A stretch of 64,000 bases of DNA from Cryobacterium lactosi (lineage in GTDB: Bacteria > Actinomycetota > Actinomycetes > Actinomycetales > Microbacteriaceae): the NCBI RefSeq assembly GCF_004403945.1, contig NZ_SOHM01000047.1, positions 1-64,000 of the forward strand, in the 5' to 3' direction. The number at the start of each line of letters is the position of its first letter. Position 1 is the stretch's first letter. Under the pieces are notes generated by a model that saw only the letters and a list, made by a program, of their open reading frames with translations, had not been told where the DNA came from and searched no databases. The position numbers and the translations under genes were made by a program. Shown piece after piece: positions 9,900-44,973 of the stretch.

Positions 9900-12425
9900 A
9901 TGGGGGAATACAAAAGAACTTTTTCCGGCGTCGTCGGGGGACTCGTCGGATTCGTGGCCATGAGCGCCGTCGCCGGTGTGCTGATCGCGGTCGGGATCAC
10001 GCCGGCCCTCGCGATCTCGAGTCTGGCCACAAGCACCACGATCAACGCCTTCGAGAACCTGCCGAACTACCTGAAGATCGACGAGCTGTCGCAGGTGAGC
10101 ACCATCTACGCCATCGACCCCAACGGTCAGCCCTACGAGCTCGCGTCGTTCTACGACCAGAACCGGGTCGAAGTGCCGCTCGAGGCCATGAACCTCTTCG
10201 TGCAGGATGCCGTCGTCGCCGGTGAGGACCCCCGGTTCCGCGAGCACGGCGGCGTGGACCTGCAGGGCACCCTGCGCGCGGCGCTGGCCAAGTTCACCGG
10301 CGGACCCACCTCGGGTGGGTCCTCGGTGACCCAGCAGTACGTCAAGAACGTGCTGGTGCAAAAGTGCGAGGTCATGCCCGATCCGGACGAGCTCCAGGCC
10401 TGTTTCGAGGAGGCCACCGACCCCACCGAGGAACGCAAGCTCAAGGAGATGCGGCTGGCCATCGGGGTGGAGAAGGAGTACAGCAAGGACGAGATCCTGC
10501 AGGGCTACCTGAACATCACCGGCTTCGGCGGCACCGTCTACGGCATCCAGGCCGCGGCCGAGTACTACTTCTCCGCCAGCGCCGCCACGCTCACCCTGCC
10601 GCAGGCGGCCAGTCTGGTCGCGATCGTGAACAACCCGGAGAAGTTCCGCCTGGACGAGCCCGAAAGCGAAACCAACGGCGCCGCGAACGGGTACGCCGCC
10701 AATAAAGACCGGCGCGACTACATCCTGCGCGAGATGCTCAAGCACAAGAAGATCAACCAGGCTGACTACGACGCCGCCGTCGCCAGCGCGATCGAGCCGG
10801 CCATCACCGAGCCCAGCACCGGCTGCCAAACCGCCGGCGGCGCCGCGTATTTCTGCGATTACGTCACCTACCAGCTCAAGACCGACCCCACCTTCGGCGA
10901 GAACGAAGACAGCCGCATCACCAACTTCCGTCGCGGCGGCTACCAGATCTACACCACCCTTGACATCGAACTGCAGATGGCCAGCGAGGCGGCCATCGCC
11001 GAGAACGTGCCGATGACCGACAGCTGGGACGTGGGAGCCGTGGCAACCAGCGTGGAGGTGGGCACCGGCCGGGTGCTCACGATGGCGCAGAACAAGCTGT
11101 ACACCCAGCTGGAGGTCGCTCCGGGCCCGGAGTACACCGGCATCAACTACAACACCGACTTCACCCAGGGCGGCTCGCTGGGCTTCCAGCCCGGCTCCAC
11201 CTACAAGGTGTTCACCCTGGCCGAGTGGCTCAAGGAGGGCCACCCGCTCGGCGAGCGGGTCGACTCCGCGCGCAAGGCCAACTGGGGCACCTTCCAGGAC
11301 TACTGCGACGGCGCCCAGAGCTTCCCGGGGTACAACCCCCGCAACGACTCCAACGAGTCCGGCCGCAACTATTCGGCGCTGGAGTCGACCATCGACTCGA
11401 TCAACACCGGCTTCCTCGGCATGGCCAAGCGACTGGACCTGTGCAAGATCCGCGACACCGCCACATCCTTCGGGGTGCACCGGGCGGATGGCGACCCACT
11501 GCAGAAGGGCGCCTCGTCGGTGCTCGGCACCAACGAGGTCGCGCCGCTGAGCATGGCGGTGGCCTTCGCCGGCATCGCCAACAAGGGCACCACCTGCTCC
11601 CCCATCGTGATCGACCGCATCATCGGTGCGGACGGCGTGGAGATTCCCGCGCCGGTGTCCACCTGCACGGAGTCCGTGAAGCCCGAAGTGGCCGCCGGTA
11701 TGGCGTACGCCATGGAACGGGTGATGACCCAGGGTTCCGCCGGGGAGTCGTACCGCAACACATCGCCGCGGCTGGACATGATCGGTAAGACCGGAACCAC
11801 CGACGGCTCCAACGACACCTGGATGAGCGGCGCGAGCACCGAGGTCGCCACCGTCGTGGGAGTGGTCAGCGTCACCGGAAAAGAGAACAACCAGCGCAGC
11901 CTCAGGTTCGACAGCGGTTCCGCAGCCACGGCCCGGCACCGGATATGGCCCGACATCATGAGCGTCGCCAACGCCAAGTACGGCGGCGACGAGTTCGACG
12001 AGGCCGCGAACAACCTCATTCGCGGTGTGCAGGTCACCGTGCCCGATGTGCGCGGCCAGAGCGTGGATCAGGCCCGCAACACCATCGAGGGCGCCGGCTT
12101 CGGCTTCCTCGACGGCGGGCAGACCGACTCCGAGCTGCCCGCCGGCACCGTGGCGCGCAGCGACCCCGCCGGCGGCGCGACCACCAGCACCGGCGCCGCC
12201 GTCACGGTGTACTCCAGCAACGGGTCGCAGATCTTGCTGCCCAATGTGGTGGGGCAGACCGTCGACCAGGCTAAGGGCACGCTGAGCGGTTTCGGCGTGG
12301 TGGCCAACGAGCAGGCGGTGACCGACCCGGGCCAGAACGGCAAGGTGCTGTCCCAGGCCCCCGCCGCGGGCAGCCCGGTCATCCCGGGCGGCACCGTGAT
12401 CGTGGTCGTCGGCAAGATCCCGTAG
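9900..12425 (+). CDS. Class A penicillin-binding protein with PASTA domains (PonA2-like), copy 2
   Basis: 841 residues, with the same domain plan as the protein at 6311 and extensive visible identity (for example FENLPNYLK, ASFYDQNRVEVP, SINTGFLGMAK). Glycosyltransferase motifs AGEDPRFREHGGVD and GGSSVTQQYVKN; transpeptidase SxxK in GSTYKVFT (about 431), SIN, and GKTGTT (about 628); two C-terminal PASTA domains (VPDVRGQSVDQARNTI, LPNVVGQTVDQAKGTL). All catalytic motifs are intact, so both copies should be active. It probably arose by local duplication with the metallophosphoesterase between the copies. It is followed by a tRNA gene. Confidence 0.95.
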   Translation: MGEYKRTFSGVVGGLVGFVAMSAVAGVLIAVGITPALAISSLATSTTINAFENLPNYLKIDELSQVSTIYAIDPNGQPYELASFYDQNRVEVPLEAMNLFVQDAVVAGEDPRFREHGGVDLQGTLRAALAKFTGGPTSGGSSVTQQYVKNVLVQKCEVMPDPDELQACFEEATDPTEERKLKEMRLAIGVEKEYSKDEILQGYLNITGFGGTVYGIQAAAEYYFSASAATLTLPQAASLVAIVNNPEKFRLDEPESETNGAANGYAANKDRRDYILREMLKHKKINQADYDAAVASAIEPAITEPSTGCQTAGGAAYFCDYVTYQLKTDPTFGENEDSRITNFRRGGYQIYTTLDIELQMASEAAIAENVPMTDSWDVGAVATSVEVGTGRVLTMAQNKLYTQLEVAPGPEYTGINYNTDFTQGGSLGFQPGSTYKVFTLAEWLKEGHPLGERVDSARKANWGTFQDYCDGAQSFPGYNPRNDSNESGRNYSALESTIDSINTGFLGMAKRLDLCKIRDTATSFGVHRADGDPLQKGASSVLGTNEVAPLSMAVAFAGIANKGTTCSPIVIDRIIGADGVEIPAPVSTCTESVKPEVAAGMAYAMERVMTQGSAGESYRNTSPRLDMIGKTGTTDGSNDTWMSGASTEVATVVGVVSVTGKENNQRSLRFDSGSAATARHRIWPDIMSVANAKYGGDEFDEAANNLIRGVQVTVPDVRGQSVDQARNTIEGAGFGFLDGGQTDSELPAGTVARSDPAGGATTSTGAAVTVYSSNGSQILLPNVVGQTVDQAKGTLSGFGVVANEQAVTDPGQNGKVLSQAPAAGSPVIPGGTVIVVVGKIP

Positions 12426-38125: not shown

Positions 38126-40687
38126 CTAGGGGGTACGCAGGGCTCCTTCGGGGCCGACGGACAGGATGCGGGGGGTGCCGGACTCGATCACAAGGGTGGC
38201 CACATCCGCCCGGCCGGCCGGCAGCAGGCGTACGGTGACGCGGCCGTGCTCGATGCTGTCGAGCACGTCGGCGACGGTGCGGGCGAGGGTGTCGAGTTGC
38301 TCGGGCGGGGTGTCGGCGCTGTCGTCGAGCACGGTGACCTCCACGCCGCGCTGCCGGGCCGCCTGGACGGCGTCGATGACCGGGGGCAGGAACAGGGCGC
38401 GGCCGCGGATGGCGTCCCGCAGGCTGGCCTCGACGAGGAGGCACTGGGCGCGCTCGGCGGCGGTGAGGGCGTGCGGCTCGGCCAGGCGTAGCAGGGTGGG
38501 CCGGGCGAGGGCGTTGACCCGGCGGAGCTGGGCCTTGCGTTCCCGGATGGCCGCGACGGTGGTGGCGTCTTGGCGGGCGCGGTCGAGGTCGAGTTGGTTG
38601 AGCACCTGGAGGTGGCGTTCGGTGCGGCTGAGCCCCACCACGAAGAGGGTGCCGGCGAGCAGGGTTCCGGCGTGCCGGCTGACCAGTTCGACGCCGAGCA
38701 GGCCGGACTGGCCGGTCGCGACGGCCCAGGCCACGGCCAGCAGGGTGAGCACCGCGTAGCCGACCCAGGCGGACCGGATCTGGCCTCGGGCTGCGAGCAC
38801 CACCAGGATCAGGGTGATCGCACCGAGGTGCCAGTGCGCGAACGGCACGCCGTTGTGGGCGGGCAGGTAGACGAACATGAGCACGGCACCCACCCCGCTG
38901 AGGGCGAGGGCCAGCGCTACCTGGGCGCGCGGGAAAGGCTGGGACATCGGGCGCATCAGGGTGATGCCGGAGAACACGATGGCGAGCAGCGCGCCGAACA
39001 TGAGCGCGAGGGGGCGGCCGGGAACGATGTCGATGAGAGCGAGGAGGCCGTGAACGAGGACGAACAGGGCCAGGATGAGCCTGGCCATGGGGGTGGTGAG
39101 GTCGAGGGTGCGGGCCAGGGCGGCGGGGTTGGTTTCGGGCGGGGTCTCGACAGGCTCGACCAGCGGGGTGGAGTCGGGCTGCGGGACGGGCTCGGGGCGG
39201 CGTTCGGTGGCCCGACGGTCGTGGCGGCGGGTCTCGACAAGTTCGACCCGCGGGTTCGGCTTGACCAGCGGGTTCGGCTCGACCAGCGGAGACGGCTCGG
39301 TGGCGTCGAGGGACCGGCGGTCGGGGGCCCAGGCTACGACTACGTCGGTGCCGCGGCCGGGGGCGGAGCGCACGTGGGCGGCGCAGTCGGGCAGCCGAGC
39401 CATGCGGCCCAGGATGGACTCCGCAATGCCGAGGCGCTCCGGCGGCACCCCGGCGGGGTCGAAGCCCACTCCGTCATCACTGATGGTCACTTGGAATCCG
39501 TCGGTGGTGGAGAGGATGGCGACCGCGCGGTGCACCGTGCGGATCGGGTCGTGCCCGGCGGCGGACGCGACGGAGTTGCGCAGGGCTTCGCCGACAGCAC
39601 CGAGGATGGCTGCCACCGCCGCCGACGGCACGGTGCGCTCGATGTTGGCGTCCTGGCCGGCGCGAGACGGGTTGTCGACCCGCACCGCGGCATCCGGAGC
39701 GATCTGCTGAACCAGCCGGCCGATGCGGCGGGCGGCCTCGGAGACCAACACCACCGGCTCCACCGGCGGGGTGCGCAGCGCGTCGAGCTGGTGGAGGGTT
39801 TTCGACGCGTGCTCGGAGACCACCTCTGGCGGGGTGCGGTCCAGGCCCGCCATCAGGAGGGTGGAGATGACGCTGTCGTGTACGAGCGCGTCGATGGTCA
39901 ACCGCTCCTGCCGGCCGGCCACCTGCGCGGCCCGGTGCGCTTCGGCCTGCCGGGTGAGGAGGGCGGCGTTGTCGACGCGGGTCGCGGACCGGCGGGCGGC
40001 GAGGGTGAAGGCGACGAACACGCTCACCAGCAGCAGGGAGTAGAGCCCGTCGGCGAGGCCGACGAGGGCCGGGTGGGCCTCGGCCGAGGTGCGGAACCGC
40101 ACGATCCCGCTGAGGGTGCAGGCCAGCAGCGTGAACCCCCAGGCCACGCTCACGCGGGCAAAGATGGCCACGGCCACACAGGGCACCCCGGTGAAGGTGA
40201 TCACCCAGGGGATGTCGGCGCCGGCGGGCATCGGTTCGGCGGTGAGGAGGAACCGGAGACCCAGAATCAGGACGAAGCAGAGCGCCATCGCGGCGACGAT
40301 GCCCTGCAACATGCGCCGAGTGGCCCACCGCACGCTGACGCCGAGAGCGACGGGCAGCCCGAACGACACCGCGAAGCCGATCGCGGCCGCCGGCGCGCTC
40401 GGGTTGCCGGCCTGGGCCAGGAACGGGGGGATCGCCAGGATGCCGAAGATGCCGGCCGCGGCGGCCACGGCGATGCAGACGAGTCGGGTGAGGTTGGCGG
40501 TGGCGGTGTGGGTGGGGATGGCTGCGGGGTCGACTGGCGGGGTCTCGACAGGCTCGACCAGCGAATTGGGGGCGGTCTCGACACGCTCGACCAGCGGATT
40601 GGGGGAGGTCTCGACAGGCTCGACCAACGGAGAGGGCTCGACCGGCGGAAGGGCGACGGCGAGCGGGTGGGGGTCGGGGGTGGTCAT
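38126..40687 (-). CDS. Fused sensor histidine kinase plus C-terminal pseudokinase-like half
   Basis: 853 residues from ATG 40687, overlapping the regulator's stop (ATGA). Order: low-complexity tail with LVEPVET repeats (about 17-52); six-helix membrane domain (about 66-232); dimerisation helix with the phospho-acceptor candidate His270 in ALVHDSVISTLL; ATPase domain with N-box GEALRNSV (about 366), SDDGVGFDP (about 403) and GRGTDV (about 444); a second LVEP linker (about 466-516); then a second membrane domain (about 533-680) and a helical C-terminal domain (about 690-853) with no recognisable N, G1 or G2 box. Each half has a separate counterpart at 43567-44973 and 42182-43570. The LuxR-type regulator upstream is the likely partner. 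The signal is unknown. Confidence 0.85.
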   Translation of the reverse strand: MTTPDPHPLAVALPPVEPSPLVEPVETSPNPLVERVETAPNSLVEPVETPPVDPAAIPTHTATANLTRLVCIAVAAAAGIFGILAIPPFLAQAGNPSAPAAAIGFAVSFGLPVALGVSVRWATRRMLQGIVAAMALCFVLILGLRFLLTAEPMPAGADIPWVITFTGVPCVAVAIFARVSVAWGFTLLACTLSGIVRFRTSAEAHPALVGLADGLYSLLLVSVFVAFTLAARRSATRVDNAALLTRQAEAHRAAQVAGRQERLTIDALVHDSVISTLLMAGLDRTPPEVVSEHASKTLHQLDALRTPPVEPVVLVSEAARRIGRLVQQIAPDAAVRVDNPSRAGQDANIERTVPSAAVAAILGAVGEALRNSVASAAGHDPIRTVHRAVAILSTTDGFQVTISDDGVGFDPAGVPPERLGIAESILGRMARLPDCAAHVRSAPGRGTDVVVAWAPDRRSLDATEPSPLVEPNPLVKPNPRVELVETRRHDRRATERRPEPVPQPDSTPLVEPVETPPETNPAALARTLDLTTPMARLILALFVLVHGLLALIDIVPGRPLALMFGALLAIVFSGITLMRPMSQPFPRAQVALALALSGVGAVLMFVYLPAHNGVPFAHWHLGAITLILVVLAARGQIRSAWVGYAVLTLLAVAWAVATGQSGLLGVELVSRHAGTLLAGTLFVVGLSRTERHLQVLNQLDLDRARQDATTVAAIRERKAQLRRVNALARPTLLRLAEPHALTAAERAQCLLVEASLRDAIRGRALFLPPVIDAVQAARQRGVEVTVLDDSADTPPEQLDTLARTVADVLDSIEHGRVTVRLLPAGRADVATLVIESGTPRILSVGPEGALRTP
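39142..39168. repeat. GTCTCGACAGGCTCGACCAG repeat inside the histidine kinase gene
   Basis: A copy of the dispersed repeat also found between genes at 14727 and 52821. Here it is read in frame as PLVEPVETP in the linker between the two halves of the kinase. Confidence 0.75.
39230..39291. repeat. Partial TCGAC/CGACCAGCGG repeats in the kinase linker
   Basis: GTCTCGACAAGTTCGACC followed by two truncated units ending GACCAGCGG; encoded as PLVEPNPLVKPNPRVELVET. A decayed array of the same repeat. Confidence 0.6.
40538..40646. repeat. Array of four GTCTCGAC..GCTCGACCAGCGG units at the 5' end of the kinase gene
   Basis: Three near-complete units (GGTCTCGACAGGCTCGACCA, GGTCTCGACACGCTCGACCA, GGTCTCGACAGGCTCGACCA) and one partial (GGCTCGACCGGCGG), about 40 bp apart. 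Encoded as PSPLVEPVETSPN, PLVERVETAPN and SLVEPVETPP in the cytoplasmic N-terminal tail. Confidence 0.8.
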
Positions 40688-41334
40688 GAGCGGCCGGGAA
40701 CGGGCAGGATGCCGTCTTCCAGGGCGCGCTTGTACAGGTCGATCTTGGTGTTCGCGGGGCGGCCGACGCGTTCGTACTTGGAGCGCACCCGACGGATGTA
40801 GTCCACCACGGTGAGCTCGGACAGCCCGGTGTGCGAGGCCACCAGCGGCGCCTTGGCGCCGGCGGCGTAGAGCGAGAGCACCTCGCGTTCGCGCGGGCTC
40901 AGGCCGGCGTCGGAGAGGTCGGGGTCGCCATCCAGCGCCGCCGCCCACTCGGTGGACGCGATGGTGTCGCCGGCCGCAGCGCGGGTGACCGCGTCGAGCA
41001 GCACGCCGGTGGGTTCGGATTTGCGCACCACACCGAGCACCCCGCTGCGGGCGGCGGCGCGCATGAGCTGCGCGTCGTCGCCGCCGGTGAACGCGAGCAC
41101 GGCCGCGCCGGTGGCCCGCAGCCGGTCGACGTTGCCGGTGACGGTGGAGCCGTCGGCCAGACGCAGGTCGAGGATCACCAGGTCGATGTGGGTCTCCCCC
41201 ACCTGGTTGAGCAGTTCGGTGACCGTGGCGACGGTGGCCACCACCTCGATCTCGGGGAGGGTGGCGAACAGGCTGGCGAAGCCGCGCACCACGATCTCAT
41301 GGTCGTCGATCAGCGCGACCCGGTACCGGTTCAT
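40684..41334 (-). CDS. LuxR/NarL-family response regulator
   Basis: 216 residues. Receiver domain with DDHEIV (acidic pocket), phospho-acceptor Asp in LVILDLRLADG (about 56), FTGGDD for the T/S switch, and a K in VVRKSE (about 106). The C-terminal helix-turn-helix LSPREREVLSLYAAGAKAPLVASHTGLSELTVVDYIRRVRSK matches LuxR-type DNA binding, though the usual NKEIA is replaced by KAPLVASH. GAGAGG precedes the ATG. It is translationally coupled to the fused kinase and is the only regulator near either kinase version, so it may serve both. Confidence 0.9.
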   Translation of the reverse strand: MNRYRVALIDDHEIVVRGFASLFATLPEIEVVATVATVTELLNQVGETHIDLVILDLRLADGSTVTGNVDRLRATGAAVLAFTGGDDAQLMRAAARSGVLGVVRKSEPTGVLLDAVTRAAAGDTIASTEWAAALDGDPDLSDAGLSPREREVLSLYAAGAKAPLVASHTGLSELTVVDYIRRVRSKYERVGRPANTKIDLYKRALEDGILPVPGRS

Positions 41335-41406
41335 TGTGTGCCTCTCGTGCCGACCTGAAAACGGGTGCCCCTATAAGTAACGGCTTTTGCGTGCGAGGCC
41401 GCGTGC

Positions 41407-42147
41407 TTAGGGTAGTGAAGGGGAACGAGCCGGGGGGCTCGCTGGGGCGCTCTCGATGGGATGATTCGCATTCTGCGCATCCGCATCGGTTGAGCGCCCC
41501 GGCACCTGGCCCTCGTCGTGGCTCACCGGTTCGCGGCGGCGGTTGTTGAGCACGCCGTGGCTCTCCTCGAGGTAGCAGGAGCCGCAGAGCGACTCGTAGG
41601 TGACCTCGACGCCGTCGATGGCCACCTGGTCGCCGTCGAAGACGAAGACCCCGTCGACCTTGCGCCCGTTGAACACGGCCTTGCGGCCGCACCGGCAGAT
41701 GGTCTTGAGCTCTTCGAGGCTGTGCGAGACCTCGAGCAGCCGACGGCTGCCCGGGAATGCGACGGTCTGGAAGTCGGTGCGGATGCCGTAGGCCAGCACC
41801 GGGATGTTCTCGATGATCGCGATGCGCAGCAGGTCGTCGACCTGGGTTTCGGTGAGGAACTGGGCCTCGTCGACGAGCAGGGCAGAGACGTCGACACCGG
41901 TGGTGCCGATGGCATCTTGCCGGTGTTGCTGGAACAGGGCGTACGCATCCGTCTCGGGTGTGAGCAGGAAGTCGACGCCGCGGGTGACGCCCAGCCGGGA
42001 GAGGATGCCGCGGTCGCCCTTGGTGTCGATCGACGGTTTGGCCAGCAACACCTGGTGGCCGCGCTCCTCATAGTTGTAGGCAGCTTGGAGCATCGAGGTG
42101 CTCTTGCCGCTGTTCATCGCCCCGTATCGGAAATACAGTTTCGCCAT
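41407..42147 (-). CDS. tdk: Thymidine kinase (TK1 type)
   Basis: 246 residues; the family core is about 200, and the last 45 residues (EPVSHDEGQVPGRSTDADAQ...) are a low-complexity tail. P-loop FRYGAMNSGKSTSM at the N-terminus, LLVDEAQFL (catalytic Glu), TDFQTVAFPGSRRLLE, and the zinc-binding cysteines in ICRCGRKAVF and CGSCYLEE. It phosphorylates thymidine in the salvage pathway. It lies between the fused and split kinase units with no functional link evident. Confidence 0.93.
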   Translation of the reverse strand: MAKLYFRYGAMNSGKSTSMLQAAYNYEERGHQVLLAKPSIDTKGDRGILSRLGVTRGVDFLLTPETDAYALFQQHRQDAIGTTGVDVSALLVDEAQFLTETQVDDLLRIAIIENIPVLAYGIRTDFQTVAFPGSRRLLEVSHSLEELKTICRCGRKAVFNGRKVDGVFVFDGDQVAIDGVEVTYESLCGSCYLEESHGVLNNRRREPVSHDEGQVPGRSTDADAQNANHPIESAPASPPARSPSLP

Positions 42148-42181
42148 AACCGCCGGTACCGCCCTTTTGTACGTTGAGGTT

Positions 42182-43570
42182 TCAGCGTACTTGGCGGGGC
42201 GCTTTCTGCGCGCGCACCCCTGCGGGGGTGGCCGGGGTGGCCGGTGCCTGTGGGGCAGCGGATGCGTCGTTCGGGTCGCGGACGCTGTCGTACTCGATCG
42301 TGAGCGAGGGCCGCCTCACGGTGACCCGCACGTTGTCGAAGACCACCCGGATGACGCCCAGGTAGGGGCGGAGCAGGGCTTTTACTTTGCGCGGCGGCAG
42401 GTCGAGGGCGGCCTGGATGGTGATGGTGTCCAGCTGGGCCGGTGCCGGGGCGGCGGGCGCGGGCTTGGCCGCGGACGACCGGGGCAGGCGGGGCACGGAT
42501 GCGGTGTCCTGGGCCGTGGTGGGCAGTGGTTGCGCCGGTCTGGCCTTGCTCGGGGCGGGCTTGACCGGCGGGGCGGTGCCGGTGATCTGCACGACGAGGC
42601 TGTGCGGGTCGAAGCCGGGCGCAGCGCAGAGGGCACCGATCAGGGCGGCGGTGGCGGCGCGCTGGTCGGCGCGGAACGCGGTGGCGCGGTGCTCGGGGTC
42701 GGCCACGACGAGCAGCCCGGGGGTGCCGCGCTCGGTCAGGGCCGCGCGTTCCCGGGTGGCCACGGTGTCCAGCCAGGTGCGGTCGATCTCGGCGACCAGG
42801 GTGCGGCGCACATCGGCGGCGAGCTGGCCGGCCTGGGCGATGTCCAGGGCGGTGACGGTGCCGCGTTCGAGGAGGTCGGCGAGGAACGGGATGACGCCGG
42901 ATTTCAGGGCGGCGACCTGCTGCTCCACCACGGCCCGGGCCATCTGGCCGCGGGCTTCCTCGGTGCGGGCGACGATGGCGCGGCGGGCATCCGTCTGCCA
43001 GGCCAGGATGGAGCGCACGATACGGCGGGAGTACGCGGCGCCGGCGGCGGTGGGGGCGAGGATCTGGGTGGCCGAGACGATCGCGTACACGGCGACGGGC
43101 ACGGTGACCTCGAACGAGTCGGCCTGCGGCAGGGTGACCGCGACCGCGACGACGCTGGCGACGGCGCCGGAGAGGGCGATCTGCCGCCAGGGCCGATAGG
43201 GGGCCAGCGCCAGGAGCAGGAAACCGATGCAGACCGGGCCGAAGTCGTCTTGCACGAGCAGGTTGGAGCCCCAACGGCTGAACTGTTCGAAGAGGTAGCC
43301 GGCGAGGGCCAGGGCGGCCATGACCAGGTGCATGCGGCCGTTGAACGGGGCGTTGGCCGGTTGGGCGGCGATCACCAGGGTGCCGGCGGCGGCGCCCATG
43401 GCGAGTACGGCGAGGGTGGCGAAGAGCGGGTTCTGGATTTGGCTCTGTTGCAGGACCGTGGCGATCACCGAGTAGCAGAGCACGATCGAGGCGATGAGGG
43501 GCGCCAGCGGCCAGGCGGCGAGGGTGCCCAGCGGGTCGAGGCGCTGCTGGGTGGAGCGGCGGCGGGTCAC
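42182..43570 (-). CDS. Membrane pseudokinase-like partner protein (counterpart of the C-terminal half of the fused kinase)
   Basis: 462 residues from GTG 43570, overlapping the kinase stop (GTGA). About seven helices (28-190), then a helical region (RTEEARGQMARAVVEQQVAALK) and a domain whose spacing parallels the fused protein: TALDIAQAGQLAADVRRTL here, TAAERAQCLLVEASLRDAI there, followed by AALTERGTPGLLVVAD against AARQRGVEVTVLDD. ATP-binding boxes of histidine kinases are not visible. A Pro/Ala linker then leads to a C-terminal beta-rich piece (IRVVFDNVRVTVRRPSLTIEY). No named family recognised. It is probably a non-catalytic partner or ligand-sensing subunit of the upstream kinase. Confidence 0.7.
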   Translation of the reverse strand: MTRRRSTQQRLDPLGTLAAWPLAPLIASIVLCYSVIATVLQQSQIQNPLFATLAVLAMGAAAGTLVIAAQPANAPFNGRMHLVMAALALAGYLFEQFSRWGSNLLVQDDFGPVCIGFLLLALAPYRPWRQIALSGAVASVVAVAVTLPQADSFEVTVPVAVYAIVSATQILAPTAAGAAYSRRIVRSILAWQTDARRAIVARTEEARGQMARAVVEQQVAALKSGVIPFLADLLERGTVTALDIAQAGQLAADVRRTLVAEIDRTWLDTVATRERAALTERGTPGLLVVADPEHRATAFRADQRAATAALIGALCAAPGFDPHSLVVQITGTAPPVKPAPSKARPAQPLPTTAQDTASVPRLPRSSAAKPAPAAPAPAQLDTITIQAALDLPPRKVKALLRPYLGVIRVVFDNVRVTVRRPSLTIEYDSVRDPNDASAAPQAPATPATPAGVRAQKAPRQVR

Positions 43571-44973
43571 GGGGTGGGCCCGTCGGTGGGGGTGGGGGTG
43601 TTCGCGGGGGTGGGGGCATTCGCGGGTTGCCCTGCTGCGGACGAGGTGCTCCGGCGTGCAGGGGCAACTCGTCCGGAGGGGGGCAAGTCGGAGGAGTTCG
43701 CGGGGATGACCGGAGTGGGGGCATCCGTTTCTGCGGCCTCGGCGGCTTCTTCTGCGGCCGCGGCCGCGATGGTGCTCGCCACGACGGGCGGGGCGGGCAG
43801 GGTGAGCAGCACCGAGGTGCCAGCGCCGGGCCGGGACCAGATCTGCACGGAGCCGCCGAGCCGTTCGATGCGTTTGCGCACCGACTGGCGCAGGCCCAGC
43901 CGGTCGCTGCCGGTTTCGGCCTCCATGAAGCCGCGGCCGGCGTCGAGCACCATCACCGAGACGTTCTGGTCGTCGGCGTCGATGACCACCTCGGCGGTGA
44001 CGATACCGGCGTGCAGCAGCACGTTCACCAGGCATTGCTGCACCGCCAGGCCCAGCTCCCGGTCGCTCTGCGGGTCGAGCCGGGCGAGGGACTCCTTGTC
44101 GCCGGTGATGTCCACGACCAGGCCGCGGTCACGCATGCGGTCGATGGCGCGGAACACGGCGCTGGACAGCCATCCGTCATTGCCGGCGGACGTGGCGGTG
44201 CGTTCGTCGACGTGGGTGAGCCAGTCACGGTCGGCGAGGGTCTGCAGGGTCTCGCGGAGGCCCGCCTCGAGGCCGCGGGTCATGGGGCCGGGTTTGGCTC
44301 GGGCCACCGAAACCAGCTGGTTGAGGGTGGTGTCGTGCATGAGGGCGATGGCGCGAACGTCGAAGTCGTGGCGCAGGATGCGGGACTCGTCGTCTTGCAC
44401 GGCGCGGTGGATGGCGGGCTGGGCGGTGCGTCCGGTGCGGCGGGCGAGGCCGTCGAGCAGCATCACGCCGACCAGGAACAGGTAGGTGACGATGGTGAAC
44501 ACGTCGGGGCGGTCGGGCACCGGGGTTTGCGACACGGCGAGGGTGGCGGCGACCTCGGCGAGGAGGAAACCGACCGTGCTCCACAGCACGCCGATCAGCG
44601 CGCCGGAGCCGGCGCCGCCGACCATGATCAGGGCCATTTTGGGCAGCGAGATGAGGAACATGTCCGAGGAGGGGAAGACGCCGGGCATGCCCAGCACCGC
44701 GCTGGTGAACAGGTAGGTGCACACGGCGCCGAGCAGCAGGTAGGCGATGGTGAGCGGCACGGTGCGCCAGCGGGCGAGCAGGGCCAGCAGCGCGCCCATG
44801 CCGAGGATCGCGGCGACGGTGACCTGCAGCCGGTCGGTGGGCGGGAACACGCTCAGCGCCAGCACCGAGAGCAGGGCGCCGGCCAGGCAGATGAGGCCGA
44901 ACCAGTGCGACGCACGGGCGAGGGCACGACTCAGCGTGGCCTTGACCAGGTGGTCGGGTAGACCTAGTGACAT
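43567..44973 (-). CDS. Sensor histidine kinase (split version)
   Basis: 468 residues; GAGAGGG lies before the ATG. Six to seven membrane helices (22-178), then the dimerisation helix with candidate His213 in IALMHDTTLNQLV, matching ALVHDSVISTLL of the fused kinase, and an ATPase domain: VQQCLVNVLLHAG (N-box Asn), LDAGRGF (G1), GSDRLGL and GAGTSVLL (G2). The Ala/Pro/Thr-rich C-terminal tail ends at the junction with the next gene. No response regulator directly adjoins. Translational coupling to 42182-43570 implies a 1:1 complex. Confidence 0.85.
   Translation of the reverse strand: MSLGLPDHLVKATLSRALARASHWFGLICLAGALLSVLALSVFPPTDRLQVTVAAILGMGALLALLARWRTVPLTIAYLLLGAVCTYLFTSAVLGMPGVFPSSDMFLISLPKMALIMVGGAGSGALIGVLWSTVGFLLAEVAATLAVSQTPVPDRPDVFTIVTYLFLVGVMLLDGLARRTGRTAQPAIHRAVQDDESRILRHDFDVRAIALMHDTTLNQLVSVARAKPGPMTRGLEAGLRETLQTLADRDWLTHVDERTATSAGNDGWLSSAVFRAIDRMRDRGLVVDITGDKESLARLDPQSDRELGLAVQQCLVNVLLHAGIVTAEVVIDADDQNVSVMVLDAGRGFMEAETGSDRLGLRQSVRKRIERLGGSVQIWSRPGAGTSVLLTLPAPPVVASTIAAAAAEEAAEAAETDAPTPVIPANSSDLPPSGRVAPARRSTSSAAGQPANAPTPANTPTPTDGPTP

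Follow-up and report, generated by a model that had tools for sequence, protein, structure and literature searches.

In a 64,000-nucleotide stretch of the Cryobacterium lactosi genome (contig NZ_SOHM01000047.1, positions 1 to 64,000; hereafter the window), five genes are transcribed from the minus strand in the order HK2, S, TK (thymidine kinase), RR_A and a gene for an 853-residue fused protein, in which a kinase half (N) is followed by a pseudokinase half (C). HK2-S and N-C are two old paralogous units, here called systems B and A. The initial annotation had read them as one sensory unit present in fused and split form, which does not hold, as the two stand side by side and both split in another genus (g93). 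In other genera, two kinase-like membrane proteins are encoded together with one regulator; in the window, system A is fused and system B has no regulator. We consider it reasonably probable that both derive from ancestral three-component systems, of which A became fused, and B lost its regulator (RR_B) and then often its phosphoacceptor, leaving HK2-S as a modulator. The features concerned are as follows.

43567..44973, minus: HK2, kinase of system B, 468 residues; membrane domain, dimerization and histidine phosphotransfer (DHp) domain with phospho-His213, HATPase_c
44335-44337, minus: codon of HK2 phospho-His213
43567..43570, minus: 4-base overlap of HK2 stop and S start, the S start being GTG
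42182..43570, minus: S, pseudokinase of system B, 462 residues; six predicted membrane helices, DHp-like helices, predicted catalytic-domain fold without His or ATP boxes, low-confidence insert at about 341-371
42148..42181, minus: 34-base gap from S stop to TK start, the position of RR_B in other genera
41407..42147, minus: thymidine kinase (TK); adjoins HK2-S in all loci inspected
40684..41334, minus: RR_A, system A regulator; receiver plus GerE (LuxR) response regulator
38126..40687, minus: fused kinase-pseudokinase of system A, 853 residues; start overlaps RR_A stop by 4 bases
39308..40510, minus: N half, residues 60-460; membrane domain, DHp, HATPase
39878-39880, minus: codon of phospho-His270 of the N half (HK1)
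39101..39307, minus: linker, residues 461-529 (about 70 residues), mostly of low confidence in the model
38129..39100, minus: C half, residues 530-853, pseudokinase; membrane domain, DHp-like helices and a truncated small alpha/beta catalytic-like end without His or ATP boxes

Along HK2-S-TK-RR_A-fused gene the spacings are -4, 34, 72 and -4 bases, and the five genes form an apparent operon in the window's clade. The initial annotation had placed the fused protein and the split pair correctly without giving their strand, and had noted the overlap in which the GTG start of S lies on the stop of HK2, an arrangement that probably couples their translation. RR_A contains the Pfam domains Response_reg (E 7e-12) and GerE (E 1e-6). 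It is the one open reading frame (ORF) in the 64 kb window that scores as a NarL-type regulator with two profiles of our own (E <= 0.01, ORFs of at least 60 codons), in agreement with the single nearby regulator described before.

Domain searches found HATPase_c_2 in the first half of the fused protein (E 2.8e-7) and HATPase_c in HK2 (E 1.1e-6). In HK1, His270, N371 of the N-box, D404, G406 and G408 of G1 and G446 of G2 are invariant in all 62 aligned fused proteins, and the HK2 of the window has both phospho-His213 and ATP boxes. S gave no family match (best Pfam E 0.32, best NCBIfam E 0.12). The C and S family alignments show neither ATP boxes nor a conserved His at the place of the phospho-His, and the Pfam search returned no HATPase match for either protein, so the earlier description of pseudokinase halves without ATP boxes stands. 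Because C and S profiles built from Cryobacterium only were too shallow (probability 9%, E 0.0037), Microbacteriaceae-wide profiles were used instead, with L032, P0132 and rows under a length limit left out of the C set. With these profiles the claimed homology of C with S was recovered (96.4%, P 1.4e-9, score 74.8, 206 colinear columns; 12.5-20.6 in one reversed and eight locally shuffled controls), and TAAERAQCLLVEASLRDAI was paired with TALDIAQAGQLAADVRRTL, the same pairing as had been proposed. The match spans the membrane and DHp regions and ends before the catalytic part. C also scored 65.4 against N (controls <= 34.0) and 56.6 against HK2 (controls <= 23.3). By these alignments, C shares descent with histidine kinases and is a pseudo-histidine kinase without phospho-His or ATP boxes; S would be tied to the kinases via its homology to C (96%) and its predicted catalytic fold. 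The protein searches scored only candidates sharing most words, and in one of them 120 of 162 proteins were among the matches listed; the records of another attach the Pfam accession PF26994 to fused relatives. The fused protein was also considered as a class IIIa adenylyl cyclase, which was rejected, as it has no cyclase Pfam domain and the match spans its membrane and helical parts.

The fused gene also carries a 20-base repeat, GGTCTCGACAGGCTCGACCA, with near copies (window 39143-39162, 40541-40560, 40574-40593 and 40607-40626), in frame in the N-terminal tail and linker of the protein, where it reads LVEPVET or close. Its pattern has 18 exact copies in the genome (reversed control, 0), and a LVEPVET-like peptide pattern occurs in 7 of 62 other fused relatives.

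The two units were compared across other genera of Microbacteriaceae in 40 loci, 20 fetched for S and 20 for the N-C type. The order HK2-S-RR_B-TK, with RR_B between S and TK, was found in 20/20 loci fetched for S. Among the 40, L104 and L105 join the 20 fetched for the N-C type to give 22 such loci; an RR_A-like regulator precedes N and C in 20 of these 22, the exceptions being L121 and L127. RR_A is only 34% identical to the RR_B of L104. In L104 and L105, both of genus g93, the two systems lie in a row as HK2-S-RR_B-TK-RR_A-N-C, both split, which would appear to be the order from which that of the window descends. Twenty of the 22 other-genus loci encode N and C in separate ORFs and two (L111, L129) in a single one; in Cryobacterium they form one ORF in 33 of 41 loci (the window included), and are split in one, partial in one and absent in six. 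The pairing of each kinase with a pseudokinase, claimed from the window, extends to all these loci: C adjoins N in 22/22 of them, and S adjoins HK2 in 20/20 other-genus and 45/45 Cryobacterium loci. TK (window 41407-42147 and relatives) stands next to HK2-S in the same 20 and 45 loci, even where the regulators are gone. Tandem N-C N-C arrangements were seen at L121 6965-11218 and L165 9185-14420. In L111 (about 10420-11712, genus g90), HK2 breaks off inside its DHp and continues in frame as RR_B, S being missing; as the sequence stands, this chimera would be a membrane-anchored receiver, and the locus also has N and C in a single ORF.

The S profile matches 158/299 genomes of the family, in 48/85 genera, and 53/57 Cryobacterium genomes. 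A survey of 296 genomes of the phylum found the C type at E <= 0.001 in 14 genomes of four families, ten of them strong; N adjoins C in all nine strong loci fetched (L184-L192, three again Microbacteriaceae), and among the six outside the window's family, a regulator sequence lies in the 1.5-kb flanks of three (L184, L192 and, weakly, L185). Strong matches to the S type numbered three in this survey and were confined to the window's family; three further matches, outside it, are weak and extend across stop codons. Two more sets are encoded in the window's own genome, RR-HK-pseudokinase at C34 (L172) and HK-pseudokinase-RR at C47 (L171); the L171 pseudokinase was recognized by position, by eye, with weak S-profile matches (38 and 22 bits) in the equivalent L181 and L182.

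All 45 Cryobacterium loci contain HK2, S and TK but lack RR_B; RR_A is found in 35 and not in the other ten. RR_B-like sequences (55-57% identity) were detected in 3/57 Cryobacterium genomes, away from this locus: in G004 and G024 within a second HK2-S-RR_B set whose HK2 keeps its His, and in G031 without HK2-S in the stretch fetched. The window's genome was also searched for an RR_B that had moved away from the locus, an idea that was rejected because the best match (36% identity) is the regulator of another such set. RR_A occurs at 75% identity or more in 46/57 Cryobacterium genomes (partial in G040), and the best match in the other 11 is 43-48%. Ten of these 11 keep S (G021 does not), so that HK2-S persists in ten species in which no RR_A orthologue was found; RR_A is present with S unmatched in three genomes (G001, G022 and G028). 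At L179, a 37-residue RR_A-like remnant lies beside TK. The converse loss is seen in L113 and L114 of g93, which have no HK2 or S in 16 kb and whose genomes are outside the S-profile matches; their RR_B carries Gly where the phosphorylated Asp would stand and keeps the full LuxR-type C-terminus. L116 is likewise without HK2-S, and its RR_B keeps the Asp.

The phosphoacceptor of HK2 was scored in 48 Cryobacterium genomes, one per species (of the 53 S-bearing genomes, G016, G027, G030, G042 and G047 were unscored). The His213 site is His in 14 species, including the window, Gln in 15 and Asn in 19, and it is His in 20/20 HK2 of other genera. The Asp that follows is retained in 48/48, and the 34 HK2 without the phosphoacceptor have no His elsewhere in the nine-residue stretch. 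RR_A is present in all 14 His-keeping species and in the genomes of 24 of these 34 species; none of the ten RR_A-less species keeps the His. On the tree of S and TK (47 rows) two changes suffice for the loss, and a quick HK2 tree with this column removed requires at least four (162 of 188 rows; L149, P0150, P0152, P0224, P0231 and P0232-P0252 left out). The HK2 tree has an extra His-to-Asn change in P0154/P0155/P0158 and one His row (P0162) inside the Gln group, which could reflect either a reversion or more than one Gln event. Several S of the Asn group have a His in the DHp helix; that this compensates for the loss was rejected because S has Gln in L157, L159 and L161 while their HK2 has Asn. 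DxxxQ is a phosphatase motif, and a phosphatase role of HK2 was considered a weak candidate, position +5 after the His being Gln in 3/48 Cryobacterium and 0/20 other-genus HK2.

The ATP domain has been kept. The N-box Asn and the D, G and G of G1 are retained in 187/188 HK2 rows and in 47/48 species, the remaining L149 being split there, and G2 reads GAGT in 43/48 species, DAGT in 3 and GAGA in 1. Where the N-box of HK1 has Glu, the HK2 of the window and 20/20 other-genus HK2 have Gln, so HK2 was unusual before the losses. The ratio of nonsynonymous to synonymous substitution rates (dN/dS; Nei-Gojobori, pairwise medians, dS 0.1-1.5 only) was calculated for His, Asn and Gln groups of 12, 19 and 13 genomes, 44 of the 48 (L149 and the short loci L009, L020 and L025 left out). 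The medians in these groups, in this order, were 0.150, 0.150 and 0.184 for the HK2 catalytic domain, 0.174, 0.300 and 0.502 for its DHp, 0.227, 0.168 and 0.459 for its membrane part, and 0.297, 0.179 and 0.486 for S. As the values are lowest in the catalytic domain, the ATP domain is the best-kept part after the loss of the phosphoacceptor.

We propose that each system would originally have had three parts: a membrane histidine kinase of the DesK/NarX type, a pseudokinase partner and a response regulator of the LuxR type. The partner would have derived from a kinase, with the same layout of membrane, DHp and catalytic domains and with His and ATP site lost, and would pair with the kinase via its membrane and DHp domains. 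The resulting heterodimer would have a single active site, sense by means of two unlike membrane domains and, in intact sets, phosphorylate the LuxR-type regulator. In system A (RR_A, N and C), N would have been fused to C in Cryobacterium to work as a single chain; such a fusion would favour the heterodimer, which the structure model also suggests for the fused protein. In system B (HK2, S and RR_B), RR_B would have gone from the Cryobacterium locus, HK2-S being kept since then by selection while HK2 repeatedly lost its phosphoacceptor and retained its ATP domain. Because His213 is lost in 34/48 species, HK2 there must act without phosphotransfer from its own DHp His; since the system has been maintained, binding of ATP and action on other kinase pairs are its probable role. 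Judged from the sequences, HK2-S in the non-His species is thus most likely an ATP-binding modulator of other kinase pairs, which we infer to be its target. More tentatively, as a proposal somewhat short of evenly balanced, Cryobacterium HK2-S would have shed its regulator and, on three or more occasions, its phospho-His, to become a membrane signalling complex without a regulator, with ATP binding, or phosphorylation of another kinase's His, as its conserved output in place of phosphotransfer from its own DHp; the window's species would stand one stage earlier.

Several points weigh against this explanation. By profile alone, S aligns with HK2 at 12% and with N at 4%, neither significant, and in a plain Foldseek search with the S fold no match had an E below 0.001. 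Structures were predicted for one chain at a time, from alignments of 62 and 61 sequences at genus level; the kinase-pseudokinase heterodimers are putative, and the kinases may form homodimers. The loci were fetched from best matches and are not a random draw. Single-pair dN/dS reaches 0.472 in the catalytic domain (0.910 in DHp), constraint in the Gln group is relaxed outside the ATP domain (S 0.486, HK2 membrane part 0.459), which allows slow decay, and HK2 of L149 and S of L143 are split.

The initial annotation had proposed two input channels into one regulator, with both HK2-S and the fused N-C phosphorylating RR_A. As a general role this is not supported, and it is somewhat unlikely overall. 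It would be in keeping with the head-to-tail order on one strand, with the His213 and ATP boxes kept by the window's HK2, and with the link between His and RR_A across species; however, this link is confounded by descent, the RR_A-less species lying inside one Asn clade. RR_B in other genera gives HK2-S a regulator of its own, little like RR_A; HK2-S persists in ten species without RR_A, and RR_A is kept in 24 species whose HK2 has Asn or Gln. The part that survives concerns the window's clade, in which His213 is kept and RR_A is the sole nearby regulator, so cross-phosphorylation is possible; that HK2 there still phosphorylates RR_A has, in our estimate, roughly a one-in-three prospect at best. 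It is less likely that HK2 of the Asn and Gln species serves as a donor kinase, using its ATP domain to phosphorylate the DHp His of another kinase such as HK1. The retained N-box Asn, G1 and Asp after the lost His would suit such a donor, and the Fas model, in which FasB is proposed to act on FasC, is a precedent; yet the N-box Gln in place of Glu is invariant in 21 HK2, and ten species have no system A beside HK2-S. That HK2-S is a decaying, functionless remnant of RR_B loss is improbable: the repeated loss of the phosphoacceptor, the two split genes and the higher dN/dS of the Gln group would fit, but the whole-protein median dN/dS is 0.18-0.49 across the three groups, the catalytic domain is still the most constrained part, and S is matched in nearly every Cryobacterium genome. 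Least probable of all, C and S would be independent signalling proteins sharing only a membrane domain and helices with kinases, as the extent of the C-S match and the lack of significant alignment of S to HK2 or N would allow.

The explanation by two ancestral three-component systems invites comparison with known ones. Our literature search yielded no paper that we recognized as describing these Microbacteriaceae systems. Like DesK/NarX-type (HisKA_3-like) two-component systems, they have an HD-containing DHp, a HATPase and a NarL-type regulator; unlike those, position +5 after the His is rarely Gln and there is an extra pseudokinase gene. DivL, RetS and other pseudo-histidine kinases are kinase-like proteins acting on other kinases, and they are not known to be encoded as fixed sets with their own kinase and regulator. 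Few heteromeric kinase-pseudokinase sensors are known. In group A Streptococcus, FasB and FasC were positive in two-hybrid assays as a heterodimer but not as homodimers; each has six predicted transmembrane (TM) segments, one is a proposed pseudokinase, and both signal to one regulator, FasA (PMC12675982). Its authors describe reports of such kinase heterodimers as rare (PMC12675982). The present sets resemble Fas, as set out there, in two kinase-like proteins with six predicted TM segments and one regulator, one partner being a proposed pseudokinase (PMC12675982). They differ in that the proposed Fas pseudokinase is described as supplying the phospho-His, whereas here the kinase holds both His and ATP boxes and the pseudokinases neither; the regulator is ComE-like in Fas and LuxR-type here, a distinction drawn from descriptions and not from sequence. 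As summarized for Corynebacterium glutamicum, a laboratory-evolved ChrS pseudokinase heterodimerizes with HrrS (PMC9491836), likewise a case of actinobacterial kinase paralogues with a catalytically dead partner; the ChrS variant is described as a laboratory frameshift, unlike the conserved gene here (PMC9491836). Exchanging the membrane anchor of a bacterial adenylate cyclase for the six-TM receptor of CqsS, a kinase, is reported to have brought the enzyme under ligand control (PMC4821796). In contrast to the membrane adenylyl cyclases AC5/AC8/AC9, kinase and pseudokinase here take the place of the cyclase domains, and we claim no common descent; the question raised is whether a pair of unlike membrane domains serves as a single receptor, as it does in those enzymes. 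The set is widespread in actinobacteria, with split, fused, intact and orphaned states among close relatives, and offers a natural series in which the regulator and then the phospho-His were lost and the ATP site kept, making it testable what a histidine-kinase complex can do once phosphotransfer is gone. From the known systems, these differ in having pseudokinases with neither His nor ATP site, a natural fusion, and a staged loss of regulator and phosphoacceptor.
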